Shown piece after piece: positions 813 through 21,262 of a stretch of DNA of 21,789 nt (positions within the stretch are counted from its first letter, which is position 1; each line of letters starts with the position of its first letter). The DNA comes from a virus: IMG/VR virus record IMGVR_UViG_3300035703_000433, positions 1 through 21,789 of that record; one strand, 5' to 3'. The position numbers and the translations under genes were made by a program. Under the pieces are notes generated by a model. That model was not told where the DNA came from, did not search any database, and saw only the letters and a program-made list of their open reading frames with translations.

Positions 813-2768
813 TTAATCGTCCAACGGCTCGATTTGGTATTCCGAGTCGGGGTCGTTGGGGTTGATGTACAGGATATCGTGGAAGCAGTCGGTCGGGCTA
901 CGACCGACGTTGTATTCGACGATATCGGGTCGATTCTTACGAATCGTGATGCCCTTCAAAATCCTGACAAAGCTGCTCTCGAACCCCTTTAATCGCTGAG
1001 TTACGAGTACCTGCTTACCGATATGATAAGCAGTTACCGGAGCCTTTACGGGCTTTTGTGGGGCCTCTGGCTGAGGCTCAGGAGCCTCAGCCGGGGCTAC
1101 CGCAGGTGACAGCCACTCGAAGGCGAAATCCCAAAAATGCCCCTCAAAATCACACACTCTGCGGCGATTGCACACACGGTATACCTGAAACACCGTACCG
1201 TCGTATCTATCCATACTATCAACATAGGAAGGGCGGCCTTCAATCTTTCGGGTTTCAGGCTTAGTGACCTTTACCCAATCTCCCTCCTTGGGTTCCCAAG
1301 GCTTGAGCCACGCCAGATTGAAGTAATACCCCCCTGGGCCAATAGACCAGGGGTTACCCTGGGAATCCGGCCTAAACTCTCCGTTAAACTGGAATGTCTC
1401 GCCATCGTACTCGTCCATGTACGGAGACACCCACCCTCTATGGGCGTGTGTAGGCTTGGTGATTGTTACCCAATCACCCCCCTTCGGCTCCCAAGCTGGC
1501 TTGGGAGCCTCAGTGACCTCAGCAGGAGCCTCTGCCTCCGGCTCTGCCGGAGGCTCCACAGCGACGACGATAGGGGCATCAGGAAGGGCAAATTGGACAA
1601 ACTCCACGCCAAGGGTAGTAGTTACCTCCACCGGCCTATCGCACACCAGAGACGGGAACCAGTCGTTCGCTAGGTAGACAGGGCCATCTTCGGACACCAA
1701 ATCCCCACCCTTCGGGTACTCGATGATCGGAGAATCTGTTTGCGGAGCAAACAGATTCTTATCGAAAATCAGGCTTTCGTACACGTCACCTTCGCCCTGC
1801 TTGTCCTTGTGCCTACGCACAAGGACTCGCAAATGCGCGTCGATCCACACGAGTTTTCGCGTGAAATCGACTTCTCGGACGATCCAACTGAGGATCTTGA
1901 ACATGCGGTCGCCGTTGGCGGTGCGTAGATGCCCGTCCGATGGGGGAGCCGAGATGATCTTGGCGACGGCATCCCGCCATGCCCTCGTAGGAGCATCTGG
2001 GAAGATGCTTGATACGATCTGCTCTGCTTGGACAGACGGCTTGGGAGCCTCTGTGACGACGGCTTCCCCCTCAGTTTTCCCCTCAGTCGCGGTTCGCCTG
2101 CGGTAGACGGCCTCACTAGCTTGTTTCCGACCGATGTTACCACTAGCCCACCAATCAACAACATCGCGTAAATAAGCCAATGCACAGAACTTGTCACCTG
2201 CGGCGACGAGTTCATCGGGTTGGAGATACCTCCAACCCTCAGGCAGATCCGGCAATGGCGTAAGCCATGCCGGATCAAACGACCAGGATAGACCTTCGAG
2301 GTAGACCAAACCGCCAATGACTAAGTGATCTGGGGAAATGTGGCGAACACGAAAAATCCCACCATCGTACTTATCCATGAACTCGGAGTTCCAGTGGACT
2401 GCGCCTTCTTGTGCAGGCTTCTTGACCTTCACCCATTGGCCTACGGCCAATGGGTGATCGGAGTCCTCGGAGTCCTCGGAGTCCTCGGAGTCCTCGGAGT
2501 CCTCGGAGTCCTCGGGCTTAGCCACGACGAGTTCGCCATCCTCAACCGAGAATAGCTCTGGGTACTCTGCCGCTAATTCTTCGCTTCCTGATGCGATCAG
2601 CGATTCGGAACTATCATTCGACTTCCGAATGATCTTCGCAAGTTCCTCTAGGGCATCGGCAACAATGGCCCTAGATTCCACCGCCACTTTGCAAGATTCT
2701 ACCAAATTCTCAATCGTTTTTGCCAACACCAACTCGCGTTGGGTTGGCTTCACCTTCTCATTTGCCAT
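813..2768 (-). CDS. Modular protein with three SH3-like GDWV modules
   Basis: This 651-residue protein is the last gene of the leftward operon. It carries three copies of a module of about 60 residues with the pattern (G)xWVxVxKP, then MDxYDGxxFxV, then WxF and WLxP: residues 109-171, 429-490 and 494-555. The pattern suggests a small beta-barrel (SH3-like). A helical N-terminus (residues 10-70) is followed by a pure acidic D-S-E repeat (86-103). Residues 178-225 (GWRYLQPDE onward) and 245-400 look like further domains. The linkers are rich in P, E and A. I know no experimentally assigned function; repeated beta-barrel modules on flexible linkers suggest a binding protein. The start has AGGAAAG 8 bases upstream, and the first 11 bases overlap the preceding gene. 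Confidence 0.8.
   Translation of the reverse strand: MANEKVKPTQRELVLAKTIENLVESCKVAVESRAIVADALEELAKIIRKSNDSSESLIASGSEELAAEYPELFSVEDGELVVAKPEDSEDSEDSEDSEDSEDSDHPLAVGQWVKVKKPAQEGAVHWNSEFMDKYDGGIFRVRHISPDHLVIGGLVYLEGLSWSFDPAWLTPLPDLPEGWRYLQPDELVAAGDKFCALAYLRDVVDWWASGNIGRKQASEAVYRRRTATEGKTEGEAVVTEAPKPSVQAEQIVSSIFPDAPTRAWRDAVAKIISAPPSDGHLRTANGDRMFKILSWIVREVDFTRKLVWIDAHLRVLVRRHKDKQGEGDVYESLIFDKNLFAPQTDSPIIEYPKGGDLVSEDGPVYLANDWFPSLVCDRPVEVTTTLGVEFVQFALPDAPIVVAVEPPAEPEAEAPAEVTEAPKPAWEPKGGDWVTITKPTHAHRGWVSPYMDEYDGETFQFNGEFRPDSQGNPWSIGPGGYYFNLAWLKPWEPKEGDWVKVTKPETRKIEGRPSYVDSMDRYDGTVFQVYRVCNRRRVCDFEGHFWDFAFEWLSPAVAPAEAPEPQPEAPQKPVKAPVTAYHIGKQVLVTQRLKGFESSFVRILKGITIRKNRPDIVEYNVGRSPTDCFHDILYINPNDPDSEYQIEPLDD
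2461..2514 (-). repeat. Six copies of a 9-bp repeat (acidic linker)
   Basis: Six exact head-to-tail copies of GAGTCCTCG encode the D-S-E repeat at residues 86-103 of the 651-residue protein. The copies are identical even at synonymous positions, which points to recent slippage, and the copy number is likely to vary. The repeat directly follows the 13-bp hairpin at 2429-2457. Confidence 0.95.
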
Positions 2769-3114
2769 CTGAAATCTTTCCTAACCACTCGGAAAACTCG
2801 TTTTCCGAGTAAAAAACAACCAAATCTGAGAGGTTCGGAGCCTTCAAAGTCTCCGAACTGCCTTGCATACGCAGCACGACACCACCCTCAACATACTCGT
2901 AATCCCACCGTCTGCCAATACAGTCCTTGTAACCAACCAAGTCTAACTCGGTGCTGGTATACCCAAACATCGATCCGACCTTCCATTTCCACTGCGGATC
3001 GGTCACTGGAACCCGAGTATCCTCGGGTTCCATCTGCAAAAAGCTCCGAACAAGTTGGAGCTTTGAATGATAATACTGGCTGACCGTACACAAAATGCTC
3101 GGATGAAGCACCAT
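2758..3114 (-). CDS. Hypothetical protein, 118 residues
   Basis: I do not recognise this protein. It is soluble, with a basic start, a central stretch with WKWKVGSMFGY and RRWDYEYVEGG, and an acidic end. The start is supported by AGGGAAA upstream, contained in the last codons of the preceding gene, whose stop lies 4 bases before the ATG. The end overlaps the 651-residue gene by 11 bases, so translation of the three genes is probably coupled. Three hairpins lie within it: 2787-2797/2800-2810 (11 bp), 2833-2840/2851-2858 (8 bp) and 3007-3017/3022-3032 (11 bp). Confidence 0.7.
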   Translation of the reverse strand: MVLHPSILCTVSQYYHSKLQLVRSFLQMEPEDTRVPVTDPQWKWKVGSMFGYTSTELDLVGYKDCIGRRWDYEYVEGGVVLRMQGSSETLKAPNLSDLVVFYSENEFSEWLGKISDGK

Positions 3115-3118
3115 TTTG

Positions 3119-3598
3119 CTATTTCCCTTCCTTAGCGTAGTAATTATGCGAAAACTTTCTCACCCATTTATGCTTCACGCCAATAGGTTGGTCGCTTCTC
3201 CTAACTTTACCGTCCGTGTGCTTCCACTGACCGCCACCACATTCCCCAACAAACGTGAATCCACAAGCTCGCATAGAAGCCCCGCCCTCCTCAGGTAGCG
3301 TGTATGTCTGAACGGTATGGAATCCCATAGCATCGGCGGCGCGACACACTGCGCCGTACAATTTGGATATGGCATTTTTTGTGCCGTTCGATGCACATCG
3401 CAGGATTTCCAAAGTTCCGTAGGGATCACATTTTCTAGCCACTGGCCTACCGCAAATGACAACCGCCACTAAGGCATCGCCACTGTACAGAGCCAGACTA
3501 AATCTGTGACCACGACAAGGCTTGTGATGTCTATGCAGGGCGGTGACTAGATCATTGGCTTGTTTCAAAGTACAAGGAACAACTCGCAATTTACCCAT
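3119..3598 (-). CDS. XF1762-family GNAT-like protein
   Basis: This 159-residue protein matches a phage family (XF1762 type): HRHHKPCRGHRFSLAL near the start, VAVVICGRPVARK, the LEILRCASNGTKNAISKLYG block, and TYTLPEEGGASMRACGF. The alternation of a strand-rich core, an arginine/cysteine strand and a following helix resembles GNAT acyltransferases, the fold also used by the Mu Mom DNA-modification protein. The substrate is unknown, so a DNA-modification role is only a possibility. I start it at the ATG at 3596-3598, which overlaps the preceding stop as TAATG; an upstream in-frame ATG would lengthen it by 15 residues into the previous gene. Homologues begin near RVVPCTLKQAN, supporting the shorter form. 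Confidence 0.75.
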   Translation of the reverse strand: MGKLRVVPCTLKQANDLVTALHRHHKPCRGHRFSLALYSGDALVAVVICGRPVARKCDPYGTLEILRCASNGTKNAISKLYGAVCRAADAMGFHTVQTYTLPEEGGASMRACGFTFVGECGGGQWKHTDGKVRRSDQPIGVKHKWVRKFSHNYYAKEGK

Positions 3599-3870
3599 TA
3601 CTTCACTTTTCCTTCCGAAATATCTGAGGTTTCTTCTACCCACCAGCGAAGATCGCCCGGACTAAATGTTTCCCAGTCCATTTCGTCCCAATTTTTTGTC
3701 TGCGCCTCGCACTCAGGGTGCATAGCTTCCGACACAATACCGGCATCTTCGTCAACGCCGGTTCTCCGCAAGTAGGATGTTCCTTTGGGGATCTCCTTGC
3801 CGCATAGGTAGCAACTATGCGACCTGCGAGCCTTCTTGACGAGTGTGTCGTCTAGGTGCGTCCAACTCAT
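3598..3870 (-). CDS. Small zinc-ribbon-like phage protein
   Basis: This 90-residue protein has a CYLCGKEIPKG knuckle near residue 20 and a HPEC pair about 30 residues later, a CxxC...HxxC arrangement that probably binds one zinc ion. The C-terminal half is acidic and rich in tryptophan (KNWDEMDWETF, RWWVEE). Small proteins of this layout are common in phage early or accessory regions with no assigned role. The start chosen overlaps the previous stop as TAATG; a longer in-frame start would run 55 residues into the nuclease gene with arginine-rich, out-of-character sequence, so I reject it. The last codons encode GKVK and contain the ribosome-binding purines for the next gene. Confidence 0.75.
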   Translation of the reverse strand: MSWTHLDDTLVKKARRSHSCYLCGKEIPKGTSYLRRTGVDEDAGIVSEAMHPECEAQTKNWDEMDWETFSPGDLRWWVEETSDISEGKVK

Positions 3871-4268
3871 TACTTCACTTTCCCCTTGCCATCGTAGGCA
3901 TCTGCGATGCCTTGTGAGTACAAATCGTAGTTGATGCTGTAGTTTTCGCCCAATTCGAGTGCCTCTACCGACAGGTAGAGGCACACCAAGTACCGACCGT
4001 ACTTCTCTCGACGGTCTTTGACCGTCTCGATCCACACTTGCGAGCCTTTAGGCAGCTTTGACTGCAAGAAAGCCTTGGCTTTCTTGCCGTTTTCGGTGTC
4101 CATCTCGGGCGTGTTGATGCCCTTGAGACGCATTTTCTCCCGAGAGTAGTTATCCCGGCCATCGTCGATCATCAGAACGACGGTATCGCCGTCTGTGACT
4201 TCCACTACCGTCGCTCTGCGACGGTAGAGCCACGATGGATCAGGTGTTTTGGTTGCTTTTTTTGGCAT
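3870..4268 (-). CDS. Thermonuclease (SNase-like) family protein
   Basis: This 132-residue protein belongs to the staphylococcal-nuclease-like family. The recognisable signatures are VVEVTDGDTVVL (calcium-binding acidic strand), EKMRLKGINTPEM, which supplies the catalytic arginine and glutamate, and KDRREKYGRYL, which carries the second catalytic arginine. It has no signal peptide, so it acts in the cytoplasm if active. Family members cut DNA or RNA in a calcium-dependent way; in a phage it could degrade host nucleic acid or serve replication. It overlaps both neighbours by single bases (TAATG), so it is translated as part of the coupled set. Hairpins with 10-11-bp arms lie at 3959-3984, 4064-4087 and 4205-4227. 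Confidence 0.88.
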   Translation of the reverse strand: MPKKATKTPDPSWLYRRRATVVEVTDGDTVVLMIDDGRDNYSREKMRLKGINTPEMDTENGKKAKAFLQSKLPKGSQVWIETVKDRREKYGRYLVCLYLSVEALELGENYSINYDLYSQGIADAYDGKGKVK

Positions 4269-4870
4269 TACCGCTTGCCTCCCTTGGCTTGTGGGAACAT
4301 CTGCGTCAAACGAGTCACGACTTCCTTGAGCTTTTCCTTGCTGGTGTCATGGACATGTTCATAGAACTCGTTGAGGATAATGTCCCACAATTCTTCGGAG
4401 ATCAGATGGGCAAACGGAGCCAAAGACATACGCAGGTACGCCTGGATATATGTTCGGCGAACGACGAACATAACTCGATCCAAGAACGCCACAGCTTCCG
4501 GATGGGAATCCGGATCGAATATCGCCTTCGAGATGTCGAATGACCGCATTTTGGTGTAGAGCAGATTGTCCAACCGCACGAACAACTCGTCGAGTTGTTC
4601 GGGTGAGTTCTTGAGGGCGTTCTCGTCACACAGCCACACAGTATCCGAAACTGCATCGAAGATCGTGCCTGAGTGCTGTACGTTGTACAGCATCTTTTCA
4701 GGCGACTGGTCAGCATCGGAAATCTGATTTGCCGCCGCCGCGACGGTGGCAACGCCACGGATAAACGCTGTCATGGCGTTGTTGATTCCTTCGGAACTGT
4801 TGAAATCAACAGATTTCTTGATAAGTTGCTCAACCGCAATCTCGATTGCGGAGGGGGATTCGGTAGTCAT
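4268..4870 (-). CDS. Hypothetical protein, 200 residues
   Basis: I do not recognise a family. The protein is soluble and looks mostly helical, with an alanine-rich segment (FIRGVATVAAAANQ) near residue 40, a central region with PEQLDELFVRLDNLLY, a moderately hydrophobic stretch (residues 128-155) and a C-terminus ending in KGGKR. The ATG at 4868-4870 has AGAAAGG 6-7 bases upstream. The stop overlaps the nuclease start as TAATG. It is the second gene of the leftward operon, after a 48-base gap with no terminator, so it is probably cotranscribed with the gene at 4919-5359. Short hairpins occur at 4579-4601 (10 bp), 4674-4692 and 4834-4851 (8 bp). Confidence 0.75.
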   Translation of the reverse strand: MTTESPSAIEIAVEQLIKKSVDFNSSEGINNAMTAFIRGVATVAAAANQISDADQSPEKMLYNVQHSGTIFDAVSDTVWLCDENALKNSPEQLDELFVRLDNLLYTKMRSFDISKAIFDPDSHPEAVAFLDRVMFVVRRTYIQAYLRMSLAPFAHLISEELWDIILNEFYEHVHDTSKEKLKEVVTRLTQMFPQAKGGKR

Positions 4871-4918
4871 CGTAAACCTTTCTAACAGGGTGTGCCCTAG
4901 AAACGGGCTATCCCAAGG

Positions 4919-5359
4919 TTATACGTCCCCGTTTGTGCGATTTTTAGGGTTTTTTCGCCTATCAGGCTCGAAGATTTCATCTTCTTCGCTAGCACAATCC
5001 TCAAGAAATTCCTCCTCCGGCCAGTCCCCCTGCCAGAGAATTAGGTTCACGAACAAGTCTTTCAGACTTGTTCCAGTCACTACGATCTTCCCTTTGGAAG
5101 ATCGTAGTCGCCAAATGCCGTCGTTTTCCAAGGAAAACGACGCACCATGCTGGCGAACCTCAGCTTCCATCATTGAAAAGCAGGGGTAGATCGAGTCTGC
5201 GTACCGATCCACCTGCGAAACCCACTTGATGAAGTTCTTGCACAGGACACGGATGTCTTGATCCTTACTGCGAGTCAAGATCCGGCGCGCCAACTTCTCG
5301 TCGGCGGCCATTTCTTGTCTGGTTGGCGGTTCAATCATTTCTTCTGCTGCGTTTTTCAT
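4919..5359 (-). CDS. Hypothetical protein, 146 residues, first gene of leftward operon
   Basis: I do not recognise this protein. It starts with a charged helical part (residues 1-50), has a middle section with KNFIKWVSQVDRYADSIYPCF, and ends in an acidic stretch (EEDEIFEPD) followed by a basic tail (RRKNPKNR). I place the start at the ATG at 5357-5359, preceded by AAGGA about 6 bases upstream; a longer frame reaching 5461 would cross the divergent promoter region and overlap the terminase start. Three strong hairpins follow one another inside it: 5051-5073 (10 bp), 5079-5108 (13 bp) and 5119-5142 (11 bp). Being the first gene of an operon divergent from the late genes, a regulatory role is possible but not shown. 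Confidence 0.7.
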   Translation of the reverse strand: MKNAAEEMIEPPTRQEMAADEKLARRILTRSKDQDIRVLCKNFIKWVSQVDRYADSIYPCFSMMEAEVRQHGASFSLENDGIWRLRSSKGKIVVTGTSLKDLFVNLILWQGDWPEEEFLEDCASEEDEIFEPDRRKNPKNRTNGDV

Positions 5360-5366
5360 GGAATCC

Positions 5367-5395
5367 TTGTAAATTAGAAGAACTAATGGTATCTT
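5367..5395 (+). promoter_or_regulatory. Candidate rightward promoter for late genes
   Basis: TTGTAA (5367-5372) and TATCTT (5390-5395) are separated by 17 bases, each a 4/6 match. The -10 falls on the same bases as the -10 of the leftward candidate. If transcription begins near 5402, the ATG at 5386 lies outside the transcript, supporting the GTG at 5431 as terminase start. Confidence 0.35.
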
Positions 5396-5418
5396 ACCTA
5401 CTATTAGGGAATTGTCTA
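5391..5418 (-). promoter_or_regulatory. Candidate leftward promoter
   Basis: On the minus strand TAGACA (5413-5418) and TAAGAT (5391-5396) are 16 bases apart, with 5/6 and 4/6 matches to the sigma70 elements. The -10 lies about 31 bases before the ATG of the first leftward gene. Confidence 0.4.
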
Positions 5419-5430
5419 CAGGGCCATTTT

Positions 5431-6849
5431 GTGAAATTAGACTACTACGACCTACTTGCATCGACTTGTCGCGACTCGTATTTCGAGTTCGTTAAGCATT
5501 TCTGGCACACCATCGTCAAAGATCCCTTGGTTTGCAACTGGCATATTAAGTACCTCTGCGACACCATACAAGAGGCGATGGAGCGAGTTTTCCGTGGGGA
5601 AAACTCGCCACATGACCTTCTGGTGAACATCTCCCCCGGTACGAGCAAATCGACGCTCTTTAGCGTGATGCTCGTACCCTGGGCTTGGACTCGGATGCCC
5701 CACCTTCGGATGATCGGTGCGTCCTATACCGACGCTCTGGCCCTGGACTTGTCTGGCAAGTCCAGGCAGATCGTCGAATCGCCCCTGTACCAAAAGACCT
5801 TCCCCAACATCCGGCTCAGCAAAGACACCAACAGCAAGTCCCACTGGGCCAATACCTACAACGGCGACCGCTACGCAGTAGCGGTCGGCGGGTCGGTGAC
5901 CGGTATGCACGCCCACGTCATCGTCATCGACGATCCGATCAACCCGAGGGAAGTTCGGTCGAAGGCCGACTTGGAGACGGCGAAGAACTGGTGTAAGGAA
6001 ACGATTTCGTCGCGTAAGGTCAACAAAGACCTTACGCCGACGTTCGTCGTGATGCAACGACTTCACCAAGATGATCCATCCACCTTGTATATCGAACGGG
6101 GCGAAGCCGCCGTTCGGCACATTTGCCTGCCGGGTGAGATCACCCCGGCAGTCAAACCAATAAGCCTACAAGACTACTATCAGAATGGCTTATTCGACCC
6201 GGTTCGGTTGTCTCGTCCGACGCTCGACCGGATGCAGGTCGAGCTAGGGCAGTTCGGCTACTCCGGTCAGATCCTCCAAGATCCGATTCCTCTGGGTGGG
6301 GGTATGTTCAAGCCTGAACGGATCAACATCGTCGAATATCCGCCAGGAGTGGATTCTTTCACGAAAATCGTGCGTTACTACGACAAATCTGCCACTAAAA
6401 ATGGCGGAGACTATACCGTGGGCGTTAAGATGGGCTTGCATAAGGATGGCTCATACTGGATTTTGGATATAATTAGAGGGCAGTGGGCATCTGATGAACG
6501 CGAGCGACAAATCGTCGCTTGCGCACACAGAGACGGAAAATCCGTCCGGATTGGGATTGAACGAGAACCAGGATCGTCTGGGATTGACTCCGTAAAGGAT
6601 TCCGTCAAGCGATTAGCAGGATTTCGCGTTTATCCCAATTTAGCCTCCGGTAAGAAGGAACTCCGGGCAGACACTTTCAGCGTTCAGGTGAACGCTGGCA
6701 ATGTCTACATGGTCAAGGGAGCCTACAACAACCCATACCTCGAAGAACTCGCGTACTTCCCTAACGGGAAGCACGACGACCAAGTAGACGCAAGCTCGGG
6801 CGCGTTCTCCATGCTTGATAAACAACGAACCAGACTGGGAATACTATGA
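5431..6849 (+). CDS. terL: Terminase large subunit (DNA packaging ATPase-nuclease)
   Basis: This 472-residue protein drives DNA into the prohead and cuts it. The ATPase domain has a Walker A-type loop, SPGTSKST, at residues 68-75 and a Walker B strand, VIVIDD, at 163-168. The RNase H-like nuclease domain shows YYDKSAT (Asp318), the IEREPG acidic site (Glu378) and KHDDQVDA (448-454). This is the architecture of TerL with a terminase_6C-type end, and the length is normal. The start is a GTG with AGGG upstream; the alternative ATG at 5386 would lie upstream of the predicted transcript start. No small terminase gene is visible in this window. The stop overlaps the portal start as ATGA. Hairpins sit in both domains; one (5638-5647/5669-5678) spans the Walker A codons. 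Confidence 0.95.
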   Translation: MKLDYYDLLASTCRDSYFEFVKHFWHTIVKDPLVCNWHIKYLCDTIQEAMERVFRGENSPHDLLVNISPGTSKSTLFSVMLVPWAWTRMPHLRMIGASYTDALALDLSGKSRQIVESPLYQKTFPNIRLSKDTNSKSHWANTYNGDRYAVAVGGSVTGMHAHVIVIDDPINPREVRSKADLETAKNWCKETISSRKVNKDLTPTFVVMQRLHQDDPSTLYIERGEAAVRHICLPGEITPAVKPISLQDYYQNGLFDPVRLSRPTLDRMQVELGQFGYSGQILQDPIPLGGGMFKPERINIVEYPPGVDSFTKIVRYYDKSATKNGGDYTVGVKMGLHKDGSYWILDIIRGQWASDERERQIVACAHRDGKSVRIGIEREPGSSGIDSVKDSVKRLAGFRVYPNLASGKKELRADTFSVQVNAGNVYMVKGAYNNPYLEELAYFPNGKHDDQVDASSGAFSMLDKQRTRLGIL

Positions 6850-8369
6850 ACAAGTTCGATACCCTCGTCACCAACGCCTTGCTGTCGCGCGCGGCGTTCT
6901 ACAACAGTCTGCTTGACGGCAAGAACGAGGATCGGAACATCGACGATGAAGTCGGCTACCCAGAGTCGATCTCCATCGATGACTACGTTCAGATGTATCG
7001 CCGTCAAGACATCGCACAGCGAGTCGTGACGCTCGAACCTGAGGAATCCTGGTCGGAATACCCAGACATCTACGAGACTGACGAAGGCCGCGAGACGGCC
7101 TTCGAGAAGGCCGTCTCTACGTTCGTCGTGGAGACGAGTCTCCACGAATACTTGGCGAAGGTCGATACCGTATCCGGTATCGGCCAGTACGCCGTCCTGT
7201 TCATCGGACTGGACGATGGCGGGGAGTTTGATACCCCTGCTCCGGGTTTCACTGATGGTGGCTTGGCCGACACGCCCGGCCAAGCCAACGTCCTGTACTA
7301 CCGAGTTTTCGATCAGTCATCGGCTCGAATCTCCGAGTACGAGAGGGATCGAAACAACCCCAGGTACGGCCAACCAAAGGTATACGAGTTGGATTTTCAA
7401 GATACTATCGACTCGACCCTCGACACCAACGCCACCCCCGTAACAGATACCATCCAAGTCCACTGGTCGCGAGTCATCCACGTTGCGGATACTCGCCTGA
7501 CCACCAGCGAAATCTTTGGTTTTCCAAGGATGGAGCCGGTTTTCAACCGGCTCTTTGACGTGCGAAAGATCAACGCAGCTTCGGGGGAAGCCTACTGGAA
7601 GGGAGGCTTTCCAGGATACGCCTTCGAGGTAGATCCCCAGAATGGGGAGCTATCCGAGGAGGATCGAGAAAACATCAAGGACGAAATCTACAAGTACGAG
7701 CAAGGATTGTCTCGGTACTTCGCCGGTGTGGGTGTCCAGGTCAAGCCCTTGACCCCCACCCTAGTTTCGCCCCAACCATTCATCGACAACGCGCTGCGAA
7801 TGATCGCAGCGGCCAAGGGATACCCGATCACCAAGCTGGTTGGCAACTACGGTGGCAACCAAACCAATGAGCAGGACGAAGATGCTTGGAAGAAAAAGAT
7901 CGCTCAGCGGCGCGAGCTTTTCGTCACCCCGAAGATCATTCGGGCCACTATCAACCGCATCCAACAGTTCGGCGCGCTCCCACCGACCAAGAAACAGAAC
8001 GGCAAGCCCCGCCCCTATATCGTCAAGTGGAAACCACTTGCCGAGATGACCGAAGGCGAGAAGGCAGAAATCGGACTCAAGCGTACCGAAGCCTTGGCTC
8101 GGTACACGACTGCCGGGGCCGAGTCTGCTGTCCCATTGGTCGAATGGCTGACGAAGTTCATGGGCCTGCGGTTCGAGGAAGCCGAGGCGATAGCCAAGGC
8201 TGAGCGATCCGAGTTTTCGCCAGTTCTGAAAGAACTGGCGGCGGGTATGTCCGGCCAACAGAACAACACGCCATCGAGCATCCCCGCAGTCCCCAAACCG
8301 ACCGATACGAAAGATCCCAGCAAGACACCACCCAACCAAGTCCAGAAGGAGAACCCTGCCAATGCGTAA
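6846..8369 (+). CDS. Portal protein (DUF1073 type)
   Basis: This 507-residue protein forms the dodecameric portal ring at the head vertex through which DNA enters and leaves. The N-terminal block YVQMYRRQDIAQRVVTLEPEESW and the following WSEYPDIYE, then SGIGQYAVLFIGLDDG, are characteristic of the DUF1073 portal family. The position directly after the terminase fits. A second conserved area is YPITKLVGNYGGNQTNEQDEDAW near residues 325-345. The C-terminus is low in complexity, rich in P, T and N. Translation is coupled to the terminase by ATGA overlap and to the next gene by an 8-base overlap. Two competing hairpins at 7082-7117 and others at 7126-7147 and 8218-8240 lie within the gene. Confidence 0.9.
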   Translation: MNKFDTLVTNALLSRAAFYNSLLDGKNEDRNIDDEVGYPESISIDDYVQMYRRQDIAQRVVTLEPEESWSEYPDIYETDEGRETAFEKAVSTFVVETSLHEYLAKVDTVSGIGQYAVLFIGLDDGGEFDTPAPGFTDGGLADTPGQANVLYYRVFDQSSARISEYERDRNNPRYGQPKVYELDFQDTIDSTLDTNATPVTDTIQVHWSRVIHVADTRLTTSEIFGFPRMEPVFNRLFDVRKINAASGEAYWKGGFPGYAFEVDPQNGELSEEDRENIKDEIYKYEQGLSRYFAGVGVQVKPLTPTLVSPQPFIDNALRMIAAAKGYPITKLVGNYGGNQTNEQDEDAWKKKIAQRRELFVTPKIIRATINRIQQFGALPPTKKQNGKPRPYIVKWKPLAEMTEGEKAEIGLKRTEALARYTTAGAESAVPLVEWLTKFMGLRFEEAEAIAKAERSEFSPVLKELAAGMSGQQNNTPSSIPAVPKPTDTKDPSKTPPNQVQKENPANA

Positions 8370-9850: not shown

Positions 9851-9856
9851 TGACAA

Positions 9857-12237: not shown

Positions 12238-12238
12238 C

Positions 12239-12445: not shown

Positions 12446-12448
12446 GTC

Positions 12449-14198: not shown

Positions 14199-14532
14199 CC
14201 CCGCACAAGCGAAGGAATTCCTGACCGAAACAAACTACACCGTCGCCGGTGTAGTTTTGGTCATTCTGGCCGCTTTAGCGTTCGCCGTATGGCGAACGCT
14301 GGGTTGGGTTGGTAAAGAATTGGCGATCCCTATTAGGGATCGACTATTCTTGGCCGTCGATAAGCTGCTCTCAAACCTAGAGCAGAACACCAGTACGATG
14401 CAGGATGTGTCTACCAGCTTGCAAAAGCTGGCGACGGTTCCGGATCGTTTGGATACCATCGAAGGCAAAGTCGATGGGCTATCGCAGCGAGTGGACAATA
14501 TGGATACACACCTGAATCGCCGCAATTCTTAA
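14176..14532 (+). CDS. Holin-like membrane protein with coiled coil
   Basis: This 118-residue protein has one strong membrane helix at residues 20-40 (NYTVAGVVLVILAALAFAVW) and a long C-terminal helical region with heptad spacing (LSNLEQNTSTMQDVSTSL, then LDTIEGKVDGLSQRVDNMD), typical of a coiled coil. The layout resembles small membrane proteins of XhlA or holin-associated type. It overlaps the previous gene by 23 bases, with AGAGAG upstream of the ATG. Hairpins of 10-11 bp lie at 14232-14257 and 14277-14300. It is the last gene before the AT-richer block and the last with frequent hairpins until 16822. Confidence 0.65.
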   Translation: MLLAQVVDPAQAKEFLTETNYTVAGVVLVILAALAFAVWRTLGWVGKELAIPIRDRLFLAVDKLLSNLEQNTSTMQDVSTSLQKLATVPDRLDTIEGKVDGLSQRVDNMDTHLNRRNS

Positions 14533-14544
14533 TGGAGACAGTTT

Positions 14545-15060
14545 GTGACCCCACAAGAACTCAATCAACTAATCCAATCTCTCCCAGATTGGCAGACTTC
14601 CACCCCAGAAAAAGTGTGGCAATATTTGTCTGAAAAGACAATCAAAAAAGTCGATCCTCGCAAGTGGAAGTCAATTGATCTTGCTAAGCTCATTGGGTGG
14701 GATCAAGTCGATAACTTCTTCAATTACCTAGCACAAAACAAATGTCAATGGGTAGTTGATCTTGCTGCTGGTGACGGGCTTGAAATCGGTGACGATCCTG
14801 TAAACGCTGTCTTGCGTGGGTTCAATAATCCAGTTTGCCAACAACTTGCTGATCTTGGAATCCACTACGTTTCGATGCTTGAAGATGCCGGTATCGAAAC
14901 AACAAAAGAAATAGTTGCGTGTGCTTTTACCGCAATGCTCAACGAAAGCACAATCGCAGAACGAAAGCAATCATTGCTTTTGTCTGGTTCTGTTAAGTGG
15001 AACGCTTTTGTCTCTGCTGTTGAATCTTGGAATGGTGTTGGTCAGCCACCGGAGTTGTAA
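14545..15060 (+). CDS. Hypothetical protein, 171 residues
   Basis: I do not recognise a family. The protein is soluble and mixed alpha/beta, with tryptophans spread along it (PDWQTSTPEKVWQYL, GSVKWNAFVSAVESWNG). The start is GTG with GGAG about 8 bases upstream. Codon choice changes here: A- and T-ending codons are much commoner than in neighbours (CTT, GCT, GTT, AAA). Inverted repeats of the kind found elsewhere are nearly absent; the best is 8 bp at 14964-14981. The gene sits immediately before the adhesin and may be its partner, a chaperone or a structural protein. Confidence 0.65.
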   Translation: MTPQELNQLIQSLPDWQTSTPEKVWQYLSEKTIKKVDPRKWKSIDLAKLIGWDQVDNFFNYLAQNKCQWVVDLAAGDGLEIGDDPVNAVLRGFNNPVCQQLADLGIHYVSMLEDAGIETTKEIVACAFTAMLNESTIAERKQSLLLSGSVKWNAFVSAVESWNGVGQPPEL

Positions 15061-15063
15061 ACA

Positions 15064-16263
15064 ATGGCCTGGACAGATAGATACGTACGATCCGATGCGA
15101 GTGGTTCTGGAACAGGACTTACTGACACACCATCAGATGCTTGGACTTTGCCACAAGTGATTACAAATATCGGCAATGGTGCAGCCACTGACGATTGGCG
15201 TATAAATATCCGTGGCGGTGTTTATAGCTTTGGTTCCACATCGTATTCTTTTTCAATAAATTCATCAGCTACATCGCCAAAGAAAGTTTGGTGGAGAGGA
15301 TTTGCGACGACCCCAGGAGACTTAGACAGCACTCCCGTTATTCCAAATCAAGCATGGACTGGGCCAGACATACGATTCACTACAGGAGCTGCTTCGCTGA
15401 ACGGACTGAATTCAGTTCTGTCTAATATCAAAATAGTTACCACGAGTGGTGCTAGTACGACATTAAATATGTCTCCGGCAAACATAGGTTTTGAATCGAT
15501 TATTGTTCGCTGTTGGTTAGAAAATCAAGGTACCGGAATACCCTTAACTATAGGGCAAGTCGGATTACCCCACAGAATTAGGGCTTACGGTTGTTACTTG
15601 AAAGCTTCTGCTTCTGCTGCTCGTGTAATTGCGGTTACTACATCTTCCGCAGTTCATTCGTGCATAATTGATGGTGGAGTTCATGGATATACCGCAGGTG
15701 GCGGTGGCGGAGTATCGGCATCATTTTATAACTGCATTTTTAGAAACCAGTCTGGATCATGTATGTTTCATAACGGAGTTACTGGTACGAGTTCATTCAT
15801 CGCTCTAAATAACATTTTTTATAAGCCTGGAAGTCACGGCATTGCTTTTAATCCTGCGGCTCCACCGCAAAACATCATGCCAGTAATGAACAATGTTTTT
15901 ATCGGCTGTGGAGGATACGGCATATCTTCTACAGACAATACCACTTTAAGCATAAATTATGCTGCATCAATCATACGTATAGGCAACAAATTTTTTGGAA
16001 ATGTTTCTGGAAATGAAAATTTTCTTGGTGAATATCAAGGACACGAAAATGTTCAGCTTACAGAAAATCCGTTTGTAGATGGAGACAACTGGGATTTTAG
16101 ATTAAAGTCGTCGTCATTATCAAGTATGTACGGATTTCCATACGTTTTTACTGGCCCAACCACTCAAGTCTCAAGTGATTACGCAAGTCCGTATAAAGCC
16201 TCAGCGAGTAGCGGTGGTGGTTTGATTTTACCCAGACCAATGAACGGGGGGTATTCAGCGTGA
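15064..16263 (+). CDS. Right-handed beta-helix adhesin / tail spike
   Basis: This 399-residue protein starts with a RYVRSDASGSGTGLTDTPSDAW motif and then WRINIRGGVY, a pattern common at the start of parallel beta-helix (pectate-lyase-like) proteins. Repeating short strands with asparagines, glycines and small residues run through residues 100-330 (SCIIDGG, ASFYNCIFRN, IALNNIFYK, PVMNNVFIGC), as expected for helix rungs. Such proteins form trimeric spikes that bind or cleave surface polysaccharides. No clear catalytic residues can be assigned. A GGAG site lies about 10 bases upstream of the ATG. The gene lies wholly in the AT-richer block and is likely exchanged between phages. It overlaps the next gene by 4 bases (GTGA). 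Confidence 0.8.
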   Translation: MAWTDRYVRSDASGSGTGLTDTPSDAWTLPQVITNIGNGAATDDWRINIRGGVYSFGSTSYSFSINSSATSPKKVWWRGFATTPGDLDSTPVIPNQAWTGPDIRFTTGAASLNGLNSVLSNIKIVTTSGASTTLNMSPANIGFESIIVRCWLENQGTGIPLTIGQVGLPHRIRAYGCYLKASASAARVIAVTTSSAVHSCIIDGGVHGYTAGGGGGVSASFYNCIFRNQSGSCMFHNGVTGTSSFIALNNIFYKPGSHGIAFNPAAPPQNIMPVMNNVFIGCGGYGISSTDNTTLSINYAASIIRIGNKFFGNVSGNENFLGEYQGHENVQLTENPFVDGDNWDFRLKSSSLSSMYGFPYVFTGPTTQVSSDYASPYKASASSGGGLILPRPMNGGYSA

Positions 16264-18500
16264 GCAAGCAGAAAAAATATGCTGGTGAAACCTCTGTGTC
16301 ATTGGCTGTATTTATACAAGACACTTCATCAACAACAGGTGGTGGATTGTCTGGTGTAACAAGTGCATCCAGTGGGCTTATCATGGAATATCGTCGTCAA
16401 GGACAATCCAGTTGGACAACTGTTACTCCTGTTGCTGGTAAGGTTCTAGGAACTTATCTAAGTGGAGGTATTATTGCTGACGGTTCACTCGCAGGTGCAT
16501 ATGAAGTTGACTTCCCCGATGCTGCTTTTGCTACTGGTGCTAGGGCCGTATTTATTAGGATTCGTGGTGTTGCAAACATGCTGCCAGCGTTGATCGAAGT
16601 AGAACTCGATGCAGTAAACTACCAAGACGCAAATAGATTTGGACTTACCGCATTGCCTAATGCCGCTGCTGGTGCGTCGGGAGGTTTGCCGACTGTTGAT
16701 ACCTCGAATAGAGTTAAAGCCAACACAGAGCAGATTGCAGGACAAGCAACAAGTGCATCAGCACCCGTTAGTTTTCCTGCTAGTGTCGCAAATGAAACAA
16801 CTGTTGCCAGTCGAGCAACCCAGGCGAGCGTTGACACGCTCGCCTCCTACGTCGATACCGAGGTAGGAGCCATCAAGGCGAAAACAGATAACCTACCGAC
16901 CGACCCCGCAGACGCGAGCGACATCGCGTCTGCGTTCGCAACTGTCAACAACACGCTCGCGACCATCGCGAGCTACATCGACACAGAGGTCGCAGCCATC
17001 AAGGCCAAGACCGACAACCTACCATCCGACCCTGCTGATGCGAGCGACATTGCCGCCAGCTTCGCTAGCGTCAATGCCGCCCTGACTACCATTACGGGCT
17101 ACATCGACACCGAGGTAGCCGCGATCAAAGCCAAGACTGACAATCTGCCGGTAGATCCGGCAGATGCCAGCGACATCGCCGCGAGCTTCTCCAACATCAC
17201 GACACTCCTAAACACGCTGGCATCCTACGTTGATACGGAAGTCGCGGCCATCAAGGCCAAGACTGACAACCTGCCTTCAAATCCTGCGGCAGTCACCGAT
17301 ATTCCAACAGCATCGGCTATCGCCGATGCTGTCCTAGAGGAAAGCGTTGACGATCACGACCATGTGGCACACAGTCTCGCCAAGTACATCAGCATCATCA
17401 AGAAGGCCAACACGGTCATCGAGGGTACAGTCACCTCTGCGATCACCCCAACCGCAACGGCCTTCTCCTCCGATGTTAGCTACCCTAATGGTGCTTTAGA
17501 ACACGCTGTCCTGCTTTTCATCAATGCGGCAGCAATCAACGAGCAGAACAGCCCAATCATAGGATATGTCAATACCAATGGCGTAATCACAGTAGAGGAG
17601 GCTTTTACTTCTGCTCCGACTGTAGGCGACCAATTCATCGTTATCCCGACCATCCACGTTCACGCAATATCGGATATTCAAGCCGGTCTGGCTACCAGCG
17701 CAGCGTTGGCCGCCGTGGCGGCCAACGTGACTTCGCTTGTCAACAGAATCCCCGCAACCCTATTTGCGGGGATCACCTACATGTCGCGATGGCTAGGCGT
17801 ATTGGCAGGCAAGACTGCCGATGCGACCACCCGAGCCGAGATTAACTTGACCCCAGCGGGGGCAAGTTACAACGAGACGACCGATTCGCTCGAAGCGATT
17901 CGGGATCGCGGAGATGTTGCCTGGATCACCGGCGGTAATCAAGGTACGGGCGCGAGAATCGTTACGATCACTGTCCGAGATTCCTCGGCCAACCCAGTCG
18001 AAGCGGCCACGGTTCGCGTGTACCGCGCGGGCGAAACCTACGCTGGCGTTACCAACGCCAGCGGAGTCACATCGTTCAGCCTGGATGACGCGACGTTTAC
18101 CGTCGCGATCACCGCCGCAGGGTTCAGCTTCACTCCTGTTTCGCTGGTAGTCAGCGGGAACGTCTCTCAGACGTACACGCTGACGAGTACCGGTGGAGTC
18201 ACGCCGAGCGTGGCTCCACGGACGACGGGCTTCTGGACTTGCCTGTCGGCTTTGGGGGTCGCAGAACCGGGAGCGCAGGTGACGATCCAAGCATCGTCAC
18301 CGCCGTCGGGATCTACCGGATTGGTGATGGAAGATGCTCCTCGGACGGCCACCGCCGACAACCAAGGGGTAGTACAATTTTCAAATTTGACAAAAGGCGC
18401 GACGTACATCGTATATCGCACCGGAAGTTCAAGAAAGTACAACGTAGTCGTTCCAGCGAACGCCGGGGACAGTACTCCGATGGGAAGTATAGTAGGGTAA
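16260..18500 (+). CDS. Long tail fibre with 42-residue repeats and Ig-like domain
   Basis: This 746-residue protein has an N-terminal beta domain (residues 1-120, SVSLAVFIQDTSSTTGGGLSG), a linker, four 42-residue repeats (residues about 197-355, core VDTEVAAIKAKTDNLPSDPADASDIA) that look like a fibrous coiled-coil shaft, a beta region around 395-470, an Ig/carboxypeptidase-regulatory-like domain (590-665, VTITVRDSSANPVEAATVRVYRAGET), and a C-terminal beta domain. This fits a fibre that attaches to the virion and contacts the host surface. The start is GTG, overlapping the adhesin stop. Composition changes within the gene at about 16800: AT-richer and hairpin-free before, GC-richer and hairpin-rich after. 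Confidence 0.75.
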   Translation: MSKQKKYAGETSVSLAVFIQDTSSTTGGGLSGVTSASSGLIMEYRRQGQSSWTTVTPVAGKVLGTYLSGGIIADGSLAGAYEVDFPDAAFATGARAVFIRIRGVANMLPALIEVELDAVNYQDANRFGLTALPNAAAGASGGLPTVDTSNRVKANTEQIAGQATSASAPVSFPASVANETTVASRATQASVDTLASYVDTEVGAIKAKTDNLPTDPADASDIASAFATVNNTLATIASYIDTEVAAIKAKTDNLPSDPADASDIAASFASVNAALTTITGYIDTEVAAIKAKTDNLPVDPADASDIAASFSNITTLLNTLASYVDTEVAAIKAKTDNLPSNPAAVTDIPTASAIADAVLEESVDDHDHVAHSLAKYISIIKKANTVIEGTVTSAITPTATAFSSDVSYPNGALEHAVLLFINAAAINEQNSPIIGYVNTNGVITVEEAFTSAPTVGDQFIVIPTIHVHAISDIQAGLATSAALAAVAANVTSLVNRIPATLFAGITYMSRWLGVLAGKTADATTRAEINLTPAGASYNETTDSLEAIRDRGDVAWITGGNQGTGARIVTITVRDSSANPVEAATVRVYRAGETYAGVTNASGVTSFSLDDATFTVAITAAGFSFTPVSLVVSGNVSQTYTLTSTGGVTPSVAPRTTGFWTCLSALGVAEPGAQVTIQASSPPSGSTGLVMEDAPRTATADNQGVVQFSNLTKGATYIVYRTGSSRKYNVVVPANAGDSTPMGSIVG
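16848..17315 (+). repeat. 126-bp in-frame repeats of the tail fibre
   Basis: Copies begin at 16848, 16974, 17100 and 17226, exactly 126 bp apart, the fourth being partial. They encode 42-residue units with core TEVAAIKAKTDNLP, DPADASDIA. The nucleotide copies differ mostly at synonymous sites, so the repeat is old and kept at the protein level. Confidence 0.9.
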
Positions 18501-18504
18501 TCAA

Positions 18505-18906
18505 ATGGCAAGAACAACGCTCGCTGCGGTCAATAAGATCATCCAGTACGATTCGACCAACGTGCCTGACCCTCAGTTGATGATCGACAGTGCATCGCTG
18601 ATGGTTACAAACGTCATCGGTTCGGCGTTGGATGCCTCCACCGCCGAACTGGTCGAGCGATACTTGGCTGCCCACCTGATCGCTATCAGCGATCCAAGAA
18701 TCCAGAGTGAGCAGGTCAAAACGATCCAGGCTTCGTACCAAGTCCGTCTTTCAGACGGACTTGGTATTACGCACTTCGGAAGTACCGCCATGATGCTAGA
18801 TTCCAGCGGCAAACTTGCCGTCTGGAATAACAAGGTCGTCAAGGGCATGGTCAAGTTCGACCTGTTCTGGGCCGGTAAGGCGGGGGACACCGATGTCACT
18901 TATTAA
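18505..18906 (+). CDS. Head-tail connector adaptor (DUF4054-like)
   Basis: This 133-residue protein matches the DUF4054 connector layout: a helical N-terminal half (LMIDSASLMVTNVIGSALDASTAELVERYLAAHLIAI), a middle SYQVRLSDGLGITHFGSTAMMLD, and a hydrophobic end (MVKFDLFWAGKAG). Such adaptors dock on the portal and start the neck. The position before the head-closure and tail genes agrees. The gene contains the longest perfect hairpin found, 14-bp arms at 18736-18749/18753-18766. It overlaps the next gene by 14 bases. Confidence 0.75.
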   Translation: MARTTLAAVNKIIQYDSTNVPDPQLMIDSASLMVTNVIGSALDASTAELVERYLAAHLIAISDPRIQSEQVKTIQASYQVRLSDGLGITHFGSTAMMLDSSGKLAVWNNKVVKGMVKFDLFWAGKAGDTDVTY

Positions 18907-19237
18907 GAGATGCCAGAAGCAAACCCTGGTCTATTGGCCCAGGGTTGGCACACAAAAGACCGGCGAACCCATTTGGGGTTCGCCGGTCGAATACACATGC
19001 CGGTGGGAGGAAATGCTCAAGGAAGTGATGGCCAACACCAGCACCCGAGTCATGTCTCGGGTGCAGGCAATCACGCAAATCCGCCTACCCGTAGGCGGAT
19101 TGATGCGTTTGGGCACATTGGCCGATACCGCCTACTGGGATAACCCCAAGCAGAATCCAGACGTATACGAGGTCATCGATTCGTCGATGACCCCGAACCT
19201 CCGTAACACCGAGACTCTGTACGAGGCGTGCGGCTGA
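18893..19237 (+). CDS. Head closure (stopper) protein
   Basis: This 114-residue protein follows the adaptor and is small and beta-rich (TLVYWPRVGTQKTGEPIWGSPVEYTCRWEE), the usual profile of head-closure proteins that stop DNA leakage in the neck. I start it at the ATG at 18893 with GGGGGA about 6 bases upstream; a longer frame from 18815 would overlap the adaptor by 92 bases and adds basic, serine-rich sequence unlike the family. A 13-bp hairpin (18958-18988) and an 11-bp one (19078-19101) lie inside. Confidence 0.65.
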   Translation: MSLIKRCQKQTLVYWPRVGTQKTGEPIWGSPVEYTCRWEEMLKEVMANTSTRVMSRVQAITQIRLPVGGLMRLGTLADTAYWDNPKQNPDVYEVIDSSMTPNLRNTETLYEACG

Positions 19238-19653
19238 TGAAGGTCAAGGTAGAAGGCATCAAGGAACTCGACAAGGCCCTTGGCAGGTATGTCAAGGATC
19301 TCGGGACAGCCTTTGCAAAAGGCTGCGAGGATGCCGCCGAGACGTTCTTGAACAGAACGGACGTTCTGGTCAAGTACGAAACCGGAGCCCTTCGGGAATC
19401 CGGGGTCTGGTTCCAAGAAAAGGATGGTTTCCAGACGGAAACCATCATCGGATACGGAGCCAAGATCACCACCAATTATTACCGAGACGGCAGGGATTAC
19501 CCCCAACAACCCGAATTGTACGCTCGCAGGCAGCACGATGACATCGAGGGCGCGTTGTTTCCAGTCACGACCGACAAGTGGATTGTGCATGGGATTAGCT
19601 TCTTTTCCGACGATATGTCCAACCTGATCGTACAGGAGATGTCCAGAGTATGA
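19237..19653 (+). CDS. HK97 gp10-like neck / tail-completion protein
   Basis: This 138-residue protein has an N-terminal strand-helix (KVKVEGIKELDKALGRYVKDL), a helix with AKGCEDAAETFLNRTDVLVKYETGALRESGVW, where the TGALRxS phrase is typical of gp10-like proteins, and a beta end with the basic DGRDYPQQPELYAR. Proteins of this family link the neck with the tail. The ATG at 19237 overlaps the previous stop as TGATG; GTG at 19228 is an alternative that adds three residues. Overlap with the next gene is ATGA. Confidence 0.75.
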   Translation: MKVKVEGIKELDKALGRYVKDLGTAFAKGCEDAAETFLNRTDVLVKYETGALRESGVWFQEKDGFQTETIIGYGAKITTNYYRDGRDYPQQPELYARRQHDDIEGALFPVTTDKWIVHGISFFSDDMSNLIVQEMSRV

Positions 19654-20042
19654 CCGGTGCAGAAGCATTAGCAGAAGTGATAGAAGCGAATCTCCCCAAT
19701 CTGGGGTATTCGATCTTCATCAACCACGTCCCCGACGAGCCAGACAATGCCATCCTGGTTTACGAGATCGGCAGAGGCCGACTCGAACCCAGGAATCACC
19801 GATCCGGCAAACGCGAGGAGCATCCTCGCGTTGAGGTTCGGGTTCGGGGCGTGGATTCCGCCGCAGGCGGAATCCTTAGGCAAATCTCGGACATGACGGA
19901 AGCCGTTTACGGCTTCCCGTTGACCAGCGGTCAAAAATTGCTAGTCATAACCAAATCTAATACAATAGGATTCGCAGGGCAAGAGCAACAGACCCGGCGA
20001 TACCATTACGCACAACAATTCCTGCTCACCATTTCGGAGTAG
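19650..20042 (+). CDS. Tail terminator / minor capsid protein
   Basis: This 130-residue protein has a helical start (AEALAEVIEANLPNLG) followed by strands (YSIFINHVPDEPDNAILVYEIG, PRVEVRVRGVD), a helix (ILRQISDMTEAVYGF), and a final strand with the aromatic RRYHYAQQFLLTI. This alpha/beta order is that of tail-terminator proteins that cap the tail tube and join it to the head. The place between gp10-like and tail-tube genes agrees. Hairpins at 19810-19832, 19853-19875 (10 bp each) and 19898-19917 (9 bp) follow closely on one another. Confidence 0.7.
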   Translation: MTGAEALAEVIEANLPNLGYSIFINHVPDEPDNAILVYEIGRGRLEPRNHRSGKREEHPRVEVRVRGVDSAAGGILRQISDMTEAVYGFPLTSGQKLLVITKSNTIGFAGQEQQTRRYHYAQQFLLTISE

Positions 20043-20045
20043 ACG

Positions 20046-20510: not shown

Positions 20511-20536
20511 GCGTTGTAGAACACTTGTCAGTTTCC

Positions 20537-20563
20537 AGGCGAACACTTGTGTTCGCCTTTTTT
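20537..20563 (+). terminator. Rho-independent terminator after tail tube
   Basis: A 10-bp perfect stem (20537-20546 with 20549-20558) with two-base loop runs into six T (20558-20563). It lies 26 bases past the tail-tube stop. Confidence 0.85.
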
Positions 20564-20585
20564 GTAGCAGAAGGGTGAAAAGATT

Positions 20586-20945
20586 ATGTCAGACGCAGTA
20601 CGAATTTCGGTTCTCCGTAAGTCCCAACCAGTCGAACTCGAAGTCTCCGAAGGCGATGTCGTTCGATATGCCGTCAAGGAAATGACCGGCGCGCAGCGGG
20701 ATGAATACTTCAACAAGACAGCCCAACGAACTACTCGCGATGCGAATGGTGAAGTGATTGGGATGAAGGACTACAAGGGATTGTACAGCACTTTGTTATC
20801 GTTCTGCGTCTACGACGCAGACGGCAAACCCATTCCTGAATCAAAGATTCAGGAATGGCCCGATACGGCCCAGAAGGCTTTGTTCGAGATCGCTCGCGAT
20901 CTCAACGGGCTCAAGGGAGATAAGGGAGACGACGAAAAAAACTGA
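20586..20945 (+). CDS. Tail assembly chaperone, short form (gpG-like)
   Basis: This 119-residue protein precedes the tape measure gene, the site of the tail-assembly chaperone in siphoviruses. Its sequence is soluble and charged (VELEVSEGDVVRYAVKEMTGAQRDEYF), without a known catalytic site. It ends ...GDDEKN at a TGA that directly follows the slippery heptamer, so this is the unshifted product. AGAAGGG lies upstream of the ATG, somewhat far. A 13-bp hairpin at 20830-20858 lies inside. The chaperone coats the tape measure and recruits tail tube subunits. Confidence 0.8.
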   Translation: MSDAVRISVLRKSQPVELEVSEGDVVRYAVKEMTGAQRDEYFNKTAQRTTRDANGEVIGMKDYKGLYSTLLSFCVYDADGKPIPESKIQEWPDTAQKALFEIARDLNGLKGDKGDDEKN

Positions 20946-21262
20946 CCCTAACGCCAGAACAGTACCTTTGGTACAAACTGGCGCATGAAATTGGATGGCC
21001 CGTATCGCTGGTTAAGCAGTTTACCACGGTATCCGAGTTCGATGAATGGCAAGCGTATTTTGAACAACGCATGTCATACAACGACAAATCGGATTACTAC
21101 GCTGCGGCGACGATACGGGCCATTTTCGCTTCCCAGGGAGCGAAGGTGTCCCGAAACGTAAACGACTTTTTGTTGGACTTCAAAAAACCAGACCAAGACG
21201 AAGATCAGGATTCCCGAAGCCTTTGGCTTCGGGCATTGGGTGTTAAGCAGGAGACAGAGTGA
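20586..21262 (+). CDS. Tail assembly chaperone, frameshifted long form (gpGT-like)
   Basis: Slipping -1 at 20936-20942 joins the 119 residues of the short form to 106 more, read from 20942 to the TGA at 21260-21262, for about 225 residues. The added part starts LTLTPEQYLWYKLAHEIGWP and contains TTVSEFDEWQAYFEQRM, the SxxEFxEWxxY-type phrase of lambda gpT-like extensions. This part has no ribosome-binding site of its own at its beginning; an ATG at 21071 gives only a 63-residue fragment and is not needed. The stop overlaps the tape measure ATG by one base. The ratio of short to long form normally controls tail assembly. Confidence 0.85.
20936..20983 (+). promoter_or_regulatory. Programmed -1 frameshift site with stem-loop
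   Basis: The heptamer A AAA AAC (20936-20942) lies in the correct frame at the last two sense codons before TGA. Nine bases further a two-part stem-loop begins: CGCCAG (20952-20957) pairs with CTGGCG (20978-20983), and GTACC (20962-20966) with GGTAC (20970-20974). The heptamer, spacing and stimulatory structure are those expected for -1 frameshifting, and the shifted frame is open for 106 codons. Confidence 0.88.

Follow-up and report, generated by a model that had tools for sequence, protein, structure and literature searches.

Short perfect DNA hairpins in the genes of a clade of tailed phages

How do perfectly paired hairpins come to be scattered through the protein-coding genes of a phage, and which nucleic acid folds? 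This question is raised by the IMG/VR virus record IMGVR_UViG_3300035703_000433, analysed here over 21,789 nt (hereafter the window, or W in all pairwise comparisons). Its genes for a terminase large subunit, a portal, a head maturation protease-like protein and a capsid-type protein identify the carrier as a tailed double-stranded DNA (dsDNA) phage. A first-pass annotation had reported about fifty hairpins inside coding genes, far above chance, and had named template switching, messenger RNA (mRNA) folding and DNA cruciforms as possible causes. We found that the hairpins are more numerous than this, that they are conserved and covary as DNA structures within the clade, and that they appear to be kept by selection.

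Hairpin excess and the lineages that carry it

An exhaustive scan for perfect hairpins (arm of at least 10 base pairs (bp), loop of 0–8 bases) identified 61 across the window. All 51 hairpins previously listed proved to be perfect, and ten were added to them (20-43, 57-80, 94-117, 313-335, 381-404, 420-446, 755-783, 7259-7287, 10615-10636 and 20537-20558). Base composition alone would yield about 0.2 such hairpins. Codon-preserving shuffles, a check named beforehand in which synonymous codons are permuted within each gene with protein and codon use unchanged, gave 0.74 ± 0.77 (maximum of 3 among 100 shuffles). The claimed excess was therefore borne out, and chance or codon bias was rejected as its origin. 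The symmetry centres fell in the three codon phases 13, 16 and 18 times, with no strict phase lock, in agreement with the earlier view that codon structure is not the driver; the counts pooled for the window and two relatives (71, 65 and 99) showed a mild preference. Most of the hairpins are genic (gene coordinates are those of greedy open reading frame calls), but eight of the 61 are not, seven lying in the intergenic stretch 20-783 and one (20537-20558) between genes.

The stems are mostly of 9–13 bp with loops of 2–4 bases, and the distribution of stem lengths has a hump at 7–13 bp, with few stems exceeding 13 bp. When control loops of 20–24 bases were used instead of 2–6, there were 0–2 inverted repeats per arm length from 9 bp up; there was thus no comparable excess, which is therefore specific to hairpin-sized loops. 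The gaps between hairpins had a coefficient of variation of about 1–1.5, i.e. near random or clumped, and regular spacing was rejected on these grounds. The arms differ from one another throughout, as had been noted, with the exception of a tandem palindrome at 20-117.

The relatives compared, all of them metagenome contigs, are designated A (L002), C or G2 (G002, examined over 60 kb), D (L014), D2 (G013), E (L015), F (L038), G or G1 (G001, examined over the whole available 52.8 kb), H (G005), I and I2 (G006 and G012), J (G007) and G8–G11 (G008–G011). At least 20 contigs from different metagenomes showed a hairpin excess, often at identical positions. The window's clade (terminase identity of 86–97% where the gene is present) has 1–3.8 hairpins per kb, with a frequency of about one per 270 bases in the dense lineages and one per 520 in the sparse one. 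The excess runs along all 52.8 kb of G1 (142 hairpins observed versus 1.4 in codon-preserving shuffles) and the 60 kb of G2, replication genes included. The sister phages are hairpin-poor, with about 0.1 hairpins per kb; the range is about 0.05–0.3 per kb in I (79% identical in the terminase) and J (63% identical in the capsid protein). No phage record matched the terminase-to-capsid region in a BLASTN search, no relatives were found among the GTDB genome contigs scanned for a host, and no tRNAs were found in the loci scanned.

A search for family A polymerases provided 80 loci. Hairpin-rich genomes occupied three places in the polymerase tree, one taken by the window's clade and L069, another by L116 and the third by L086 with L095. 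Intermediate and poor lineages lay between them, and the tree requires at least three changes of the hairpin trait. G008 (L116) has the same features as the window, with 60 hairpins of arm at least 10 bp in 31 kb and 11 of 19 triloops of the GNA/TNC type considered below. In L095 and L086, which are related phages, identical hairpins (e.g. ATTCGGTGC) are found again some 8 kb away (L095:3666-3750 and 12113-12199; L086:179-692 and 8107-8545) and resemble a dispersed regulatory element. The polymerase gene of L085 (G014:16748-18127) contains one in-frame TGA.

Stem conservation and the paired form

In the terminase-to-capsid alignment, many hairpins have both arms unchanged between flanks that are 13–20% divergent. 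Within the clade, third-codon positions in stems are 2–15 times less divergent than those in the rest of the genes (W–A, 0.7% versus 11%; G2–W, 7.8% versus 31%; G2–G1, 10.7% versus 35%; these pairwise tests overlap in lineages and are not mutually independent). Against the hairpin-poor sister I, third-codon divergence in the same stems was no different from that elsewhere, so the stem codons are not intrinsically conserved. Double changes restored pairing in 14 of 15 cases (W–G1) and 15 of 16 (G2–G1), versus 14 of 37 in the comparison with I, which equals the chance value of one third. The alignment of arms called for in the first-pass annotation therefore gave compensatory changes. Only 10 of 80 wobble:wobble stem pairs were changed (34.7% expected), as were none of 176 (6.8% expected) and 5 of 158 (17.4% expected) noncoding stem pairs; the exceptions without a clear reduction were W–H at wobble:wobble pairs and D–G1 at noncoding pairs. 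Covarying pairs thus go together with lowered synonymous divergence where bases are paired, and both are marks of a genome-wide conserved DNA structure.

Hairpins acting in transcripts, through stability, pausing or translation control, would be mostly genic, as observed, and they are depleted about twofold near gene starts, which may reflect either a cost in mRNA or constrained start signals. However, G.T is not commoner than A.C among single mismatches of stems on the coding strand (26 and 31, respectively; p = 0.60). GU pairs are maintained in RNA viruses and in noncoding RNAs, but GT pairs hardly at all in single-stranded DNA (ssDNA) viruses (PMC6993869), and the stems studied here resemble the conserved structure of the latter in not maintaining G.T pairs. 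Three bases is the mode of loop length, and 48 of 100 non-redundant triloops are GNA or TNC, about threefold more than the 17% or so expected (p = 4e-13); their share in the chance hairpins of I and J is 14–16%. In vitro, DNA hairpins with a GNA loop and a G-C closing pair show unusual heat stability and resistance to nucleases (PMC4686876). Favourable triloops are equally frequent on the template strand (GNA 21 and TNC 27 by coding strand; 24 and 23 by genome strand). Strand preference of the loops was therefore rejected, and this likeness of the two strands implies an intermediate exposing either of them. RNA tetraloops are not enriched (GNRA, 3 of 91; UNCG, 1 of 91), an Rfam search of the window gave no match, and intrinsic terminators were rejected, since a T-run follows the stem in 12 of 397 cases only. 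The hairpin signature is that of DNA, not of mRNA, and mRNA folding is a very improbable explanation. Double-stranded sites, whether palindromes bound by a protein or cruciforms that extrude when the DNA is supercoiled, would be consistent with the strand symmetry of all these features, but stems and flanks have no consensus (no motif was shared by stems, loops or flanks beyond the GNA/TNC loops), and the optimum at three bases and the GNA preference are features of a hairpin turn. Furthermore, the excess of 7–8 bp stems rises with G+C content, being about 2-fold at the low end and 18-fold at the high end, and stem length is negatively correlated with G+C (rho = -0.23, p = 4e-5). Cruciform extrusion costs the arms one duplex pair for each pair formed, and stem G+C should be irrelevant; its effect on the excess points to ssDNA as the competing state. 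We infer that the active form is ssDNA. The cruciforms suggested earlier were thus correct as to the DNA level of the structure, but single-stranded hairpins are indicated in their place, and double-stranded sites seem to us as improbable as mRNA folding. Dispersed palindromic mobile elements (REP, RPE, MITE) were rejected because, the array at 20-117 excepted, the arms differ, and because stem alignments are almost gapless.

In the most serious alternative, the hairpins would be functionless products of neutral homogenisation, in which a polymerase switching template within quasi-palindromes during replication perfected the arms and later corrected mismatches. Template switching is known in bacteria and yeast (PMC7202029, PMC8604942), and a process of this kind has been proposed for the coding palindromes of nematomorph mitochondria (PMC6649704). 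The high perfection of the arms fits such a process, a propensity to fold would account for the GNA loops and the dependence on stability, and some gains appear confined to one arm (e.g. W~10534 in D–G). However, the per-site rate should then stay at background at unconstrained pairs, and wobble:wobble and noncoding pairs are mostly conserved 2–6 times or more. Changes are evenly split between the arms (chi2 = 25.6, df = 43), and in hairpins absent from a relative the transition:transversion ratio is 106:81, equal to that of the background (2452:1953), where copying would predict 1:2, although background divergence dilutes both tests. Newly acquired DNA lacks hairpins, with 0 in the 3.4 kb of the window unshared with relatives (including 14562-16793), where the hairpin density of the shared DNA would give about 15. 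Taken together, the conservation of unconstrained pairs, the arm split, a change spectrum like that of ordinary point mutation and the hairpin-free acquired DNA lead us to favour slow accumulation under selection, and template switching, proposed earlier, is unlikely to be the main cause. A sequencing or assembly artefact might be suspected, since every record is a metagenome contig, but identical hairpins occur in identical places in independent metagenomes and are absent from sister phages and recently acquired blocks; its probability is negligible.

Hairpins along the window

Hairpins are given here with their arm and loop lengths (arm/loop). The intergenic stretch at the contig edge starts with three copies (20-43, 57-80 and 94-117) of a 24-bp perfect palindrome with 12-bp arms, reading GAGCGGATGCCT followed by AGGCATCCGCTC, in a 37-bp tandem array within 1-127; each copy has one unpaired pair in relative A. 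It is followed by 313-335 (10/3), 381-404 (11/2) and 420-446 (11/5), all paired in A and the last two also in G1, and by 755-783 (11/7), the arms of which are unchanged in A, D and G1. On the minus strand, the gene 813-2768 contains 1069-1092 (11/2), 1486-1509 (11/2), 1731-1759 (13/3), 1803-1826 (10/4) and 2429-2457 (13/3). Adjoining the last of these, a 9-bp tandem repeat (TCGGAGTCC, 6.4 copies, 2458-2515) encodes an acidic SED repeat in the same gene. The gene 2758-3114(-) has 2787-2810 (11/2) and 3007-3032 (11/4), and a Mom-like DNA modification protein (PHROG 1384) is encoded at 3119-3643 on the minus strand. In the SNase-like gene 3870-4268(-), the arms of 3959-3984 (11/4), 4064-4087 (11/2) and 4205-4227 (10/3) are unchanged in A and G1. 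Hairpin 4579-4601 (11/1) lies in the gene 4268-4870(-), and the gene 4919-5461(-) carries an adjacent trio, 5051-5073 (10/3), 5079-5108 (13/4) and 5119-5142 (11/2), with a computed ssDNA fold of -32.7 kcal/mol (z = -8.7); the first member is unchanged in all six relatives aligned there.

On the plus strand, the terminase large subunit gene (5323-6849) contains 5583-5608 (11/4), 5742-5766 (10/5), 5865-5887 (10/3) and 6012-6037 (10/6), and the portal gene (6846-8369) contains 7092-7117 (12/2), 7126-7147 (10/2), 7259-7287 (11/7) and 8218-8240 (10/3). Two hairpins lie in the DUF2213/head maturation protease-like gene (8531-9850): 8968-8990 (10/3), with a compensatory pair that is C-G in the window and A-T in D, E, F and G, and 9048-9070 (10/3), with both arms unchanged in 7 of 7 relatives. 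The major capsid-type gene (10310-11386) has 10615-10636 (10/2), unchanged in 7 of 7 clade members, and 11163-11189 (12/3). Downstream, the gene 11929-12237(+) contains 11967-11992 (10/6), 12025-12051 (12/3) and 12170-12195 (11/4), and the gene 12449-12832(+) contains 12513-12542 (13/4), 12630-12657 (12/4) and 12774-12805 (13/6). In 12630-12657, three compensatory exchanges relative to G1 (C-G to T-A, C-G to G-C and A-T to G-C) have kept the stem. The gene 12829-13725(+) has 13243-13264 (10/2) and 13393-13412 (10/0), followed by 13794-13817 (10/4), 13855-13877 (10/3), 13917-13940 (10/4) and 14003-14023 (10/1) in the gene 13722-14198(+), and 14232-14257 (11/4) and 14277-14300 (10/4) in the gene 14176-14532(+).

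The lineage-specific block 14562-16793, of low G+C (0.44), is hairpin-free, provides an internal control and was probably acquired recently. Beyond it, the gene 16260-18500(+) contains 16822-16845 (10/4), 16907-16934 (11/6), 17307-17332 (11/4), 17704-17727 (11/2), 17748-17773 (10/6) and 18041-18063 (10/3). The longest hairpin of the window, 18736-18766 (14/3), lies in the gene 18505-18906(+); then come 18958-18988 (13/5) and 19078-19101 (11/2) in the gene 18910-19237(+), 19423-19446 (10/4) in the gene 19228-19653(+), and 19810-19832 (10/3) and 19853-19875 (10/3) in the gene 19650-20042(+). The intergenic hairpin 20537-20558 (10/2) is unchanged in D, G1, E and H, and 20830-20858 (13/3) lies in the tail assembly chaperone-like gene 20586-20945(+). 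At the contig end (21484-21789), the last gene, tail tape-measure-like by position, contains a 126-bp direct repeat (98% identical); an array at 126-bp spacing, with one hairpin per unit, was also seen in locus I (G006:3710-4109).

Possible role and comparison with known systems

On balance, we think that a clade of dsDNA tailed phages has been under sustained selection for short DNA hairpins, perfectly paired and highly stable, genome-wide, genes included, and that selection rather than mutation bias would account for their upkeep. Either strand, when single-stranded, would fold into them, and intermediates of replication and recombination are the likeliest setting. The hairpins would be built mainly by ordinary point mutation in both arms, with purifying selection removing mismatches and accepting compensatory pairs. 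Several points weigh against this interpretation. A neutral variant, in which hairpins template correction and paired DNA mutates more slowly, could mimic the conservation and covariation. Noncoding stems are slightly longer than coding stems, and a mutational process would give the same. In the rich lineage L086/L095 (G009/G010), the arms are longer, there is no clear GNA bias, conservation is weaker and some elements are repeated, so another process may lie behind these hairpins. Finally, no gene was found to be shared by the three rich lineages and missing from the poor lineages, so that gene content offers no candidate reader of the hairpins.

Since stable GNA hairpins resist nucleases in vitro, our first proposal for the role of selected hairpins is that they may be spaced, nuclease-resistant brakes on ssDNA ends or gaps in recombination-dependent replication; structure-directed priming or loading sites would be our second choice. 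Each of these specific roles, taken singly, is doubtful. The replication set of the phages is of a recombination type and comprises SSB, an SbcC-like protein, a metallophosphatase (SbcD-like), a 5'-3' exonuclease, primase, a DnaB-type helicase, a clamp loader and a split family A polymerase, to which a putative RecA/UvsX-like protein and a putative sliding clamp can be added from a reading of the sequence, without a family match. This set is also found in J and I2, which are hairpin-poor. Gene content does not therefore explain the trait, and a pressure from outside, for example from the host, is likely. When the rich clade is compared with its poor sister, the SbcC N-terminal part and the SbcD-like protein are only 38% and 46% identical, respectively, versus 52–69% for other replication proteins (L044:5079-7084 (G002), G012:8190-10234). 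An allele may have been replaced in this hairpin-processing nuclease, but distances to J do not place the change on the rich branch, and this is a lead only.

A broader possibility, which we put forward tentatively, is that a second, structure-only code overlies the genes, in which hundreds of sequence-unrelated ssDNA hairpins are read by shape and stability and which evolved more than once in related phages. Its reader might be a replication or recombination factor, or a host nuclease that is evaded. If selection is indeed responsible, it would represent an unrecognised force on phage DNA during replication, exerted for example by a host nuclease or a structure-reading enzyme. The cause can be sought by comparing closely related lineages with and without the trait, and the system offers a clean test of selection versus template-switch homogenisation for short inverted repeats, a long ambiguous matter.

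Viruses with single-stranded RNA or DNA genomes are known to have ordered structure on a genome scale, but, to our knowledge, no dsDNA virus has genes moulded to form ssDNA hairpins. No described counterpart in dsDNA viruses was found in the literature searched, the partial coverage of which makes this weak evidence of novelty. Geminiviruses and other ssDNA viruses share with these phages co-evolving pairs at the DNA level with little or no GT maintenance (PMC6993869). However, their genomes are single-stranded, whereas the phage has terminase, portal and tail genes typical of dsDNA packaging and forms stereotyped short perfect hairpins unlike the pairing of those viruses. DNA mini-hairpins such as d(GCGAAGC) have the same GNA triloops with C-G closure (PMC4686876), but are known as isolated synthetic or local elements, not genome-wide. 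The mitochondrial coding palindromes of Nematomorpha (PMC6649704) are likewise numerous perfect inverted repeats in conserved protein genes, gained or lost between species and rarely imperfect. They average 43 bp, with arms of up to 142 bp and long spacers, and their authors lean towards repeat conversion; the phage hairpins, in a dsDNA phage, have stems of 9–14 bp and loops of 2–4 bases, their triloops are of the DNA type, they covary strongly, and their noncoding pairs are conserved. Template-switch mutation at quasipalindromes (PMC7202029, PMC8604942) also yields perfect short inverted repeats in genes, but as rare, single events with changes clustered on one arm, whereas here hundreds of hairpins are conserved and covary. 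The bacterial defence system Lamassu/DdmABC, which is triggered by hairpin-forming palindromes and senses such structures (PMC10586767), would select against hairpins, whereas in these phages they accumulate.

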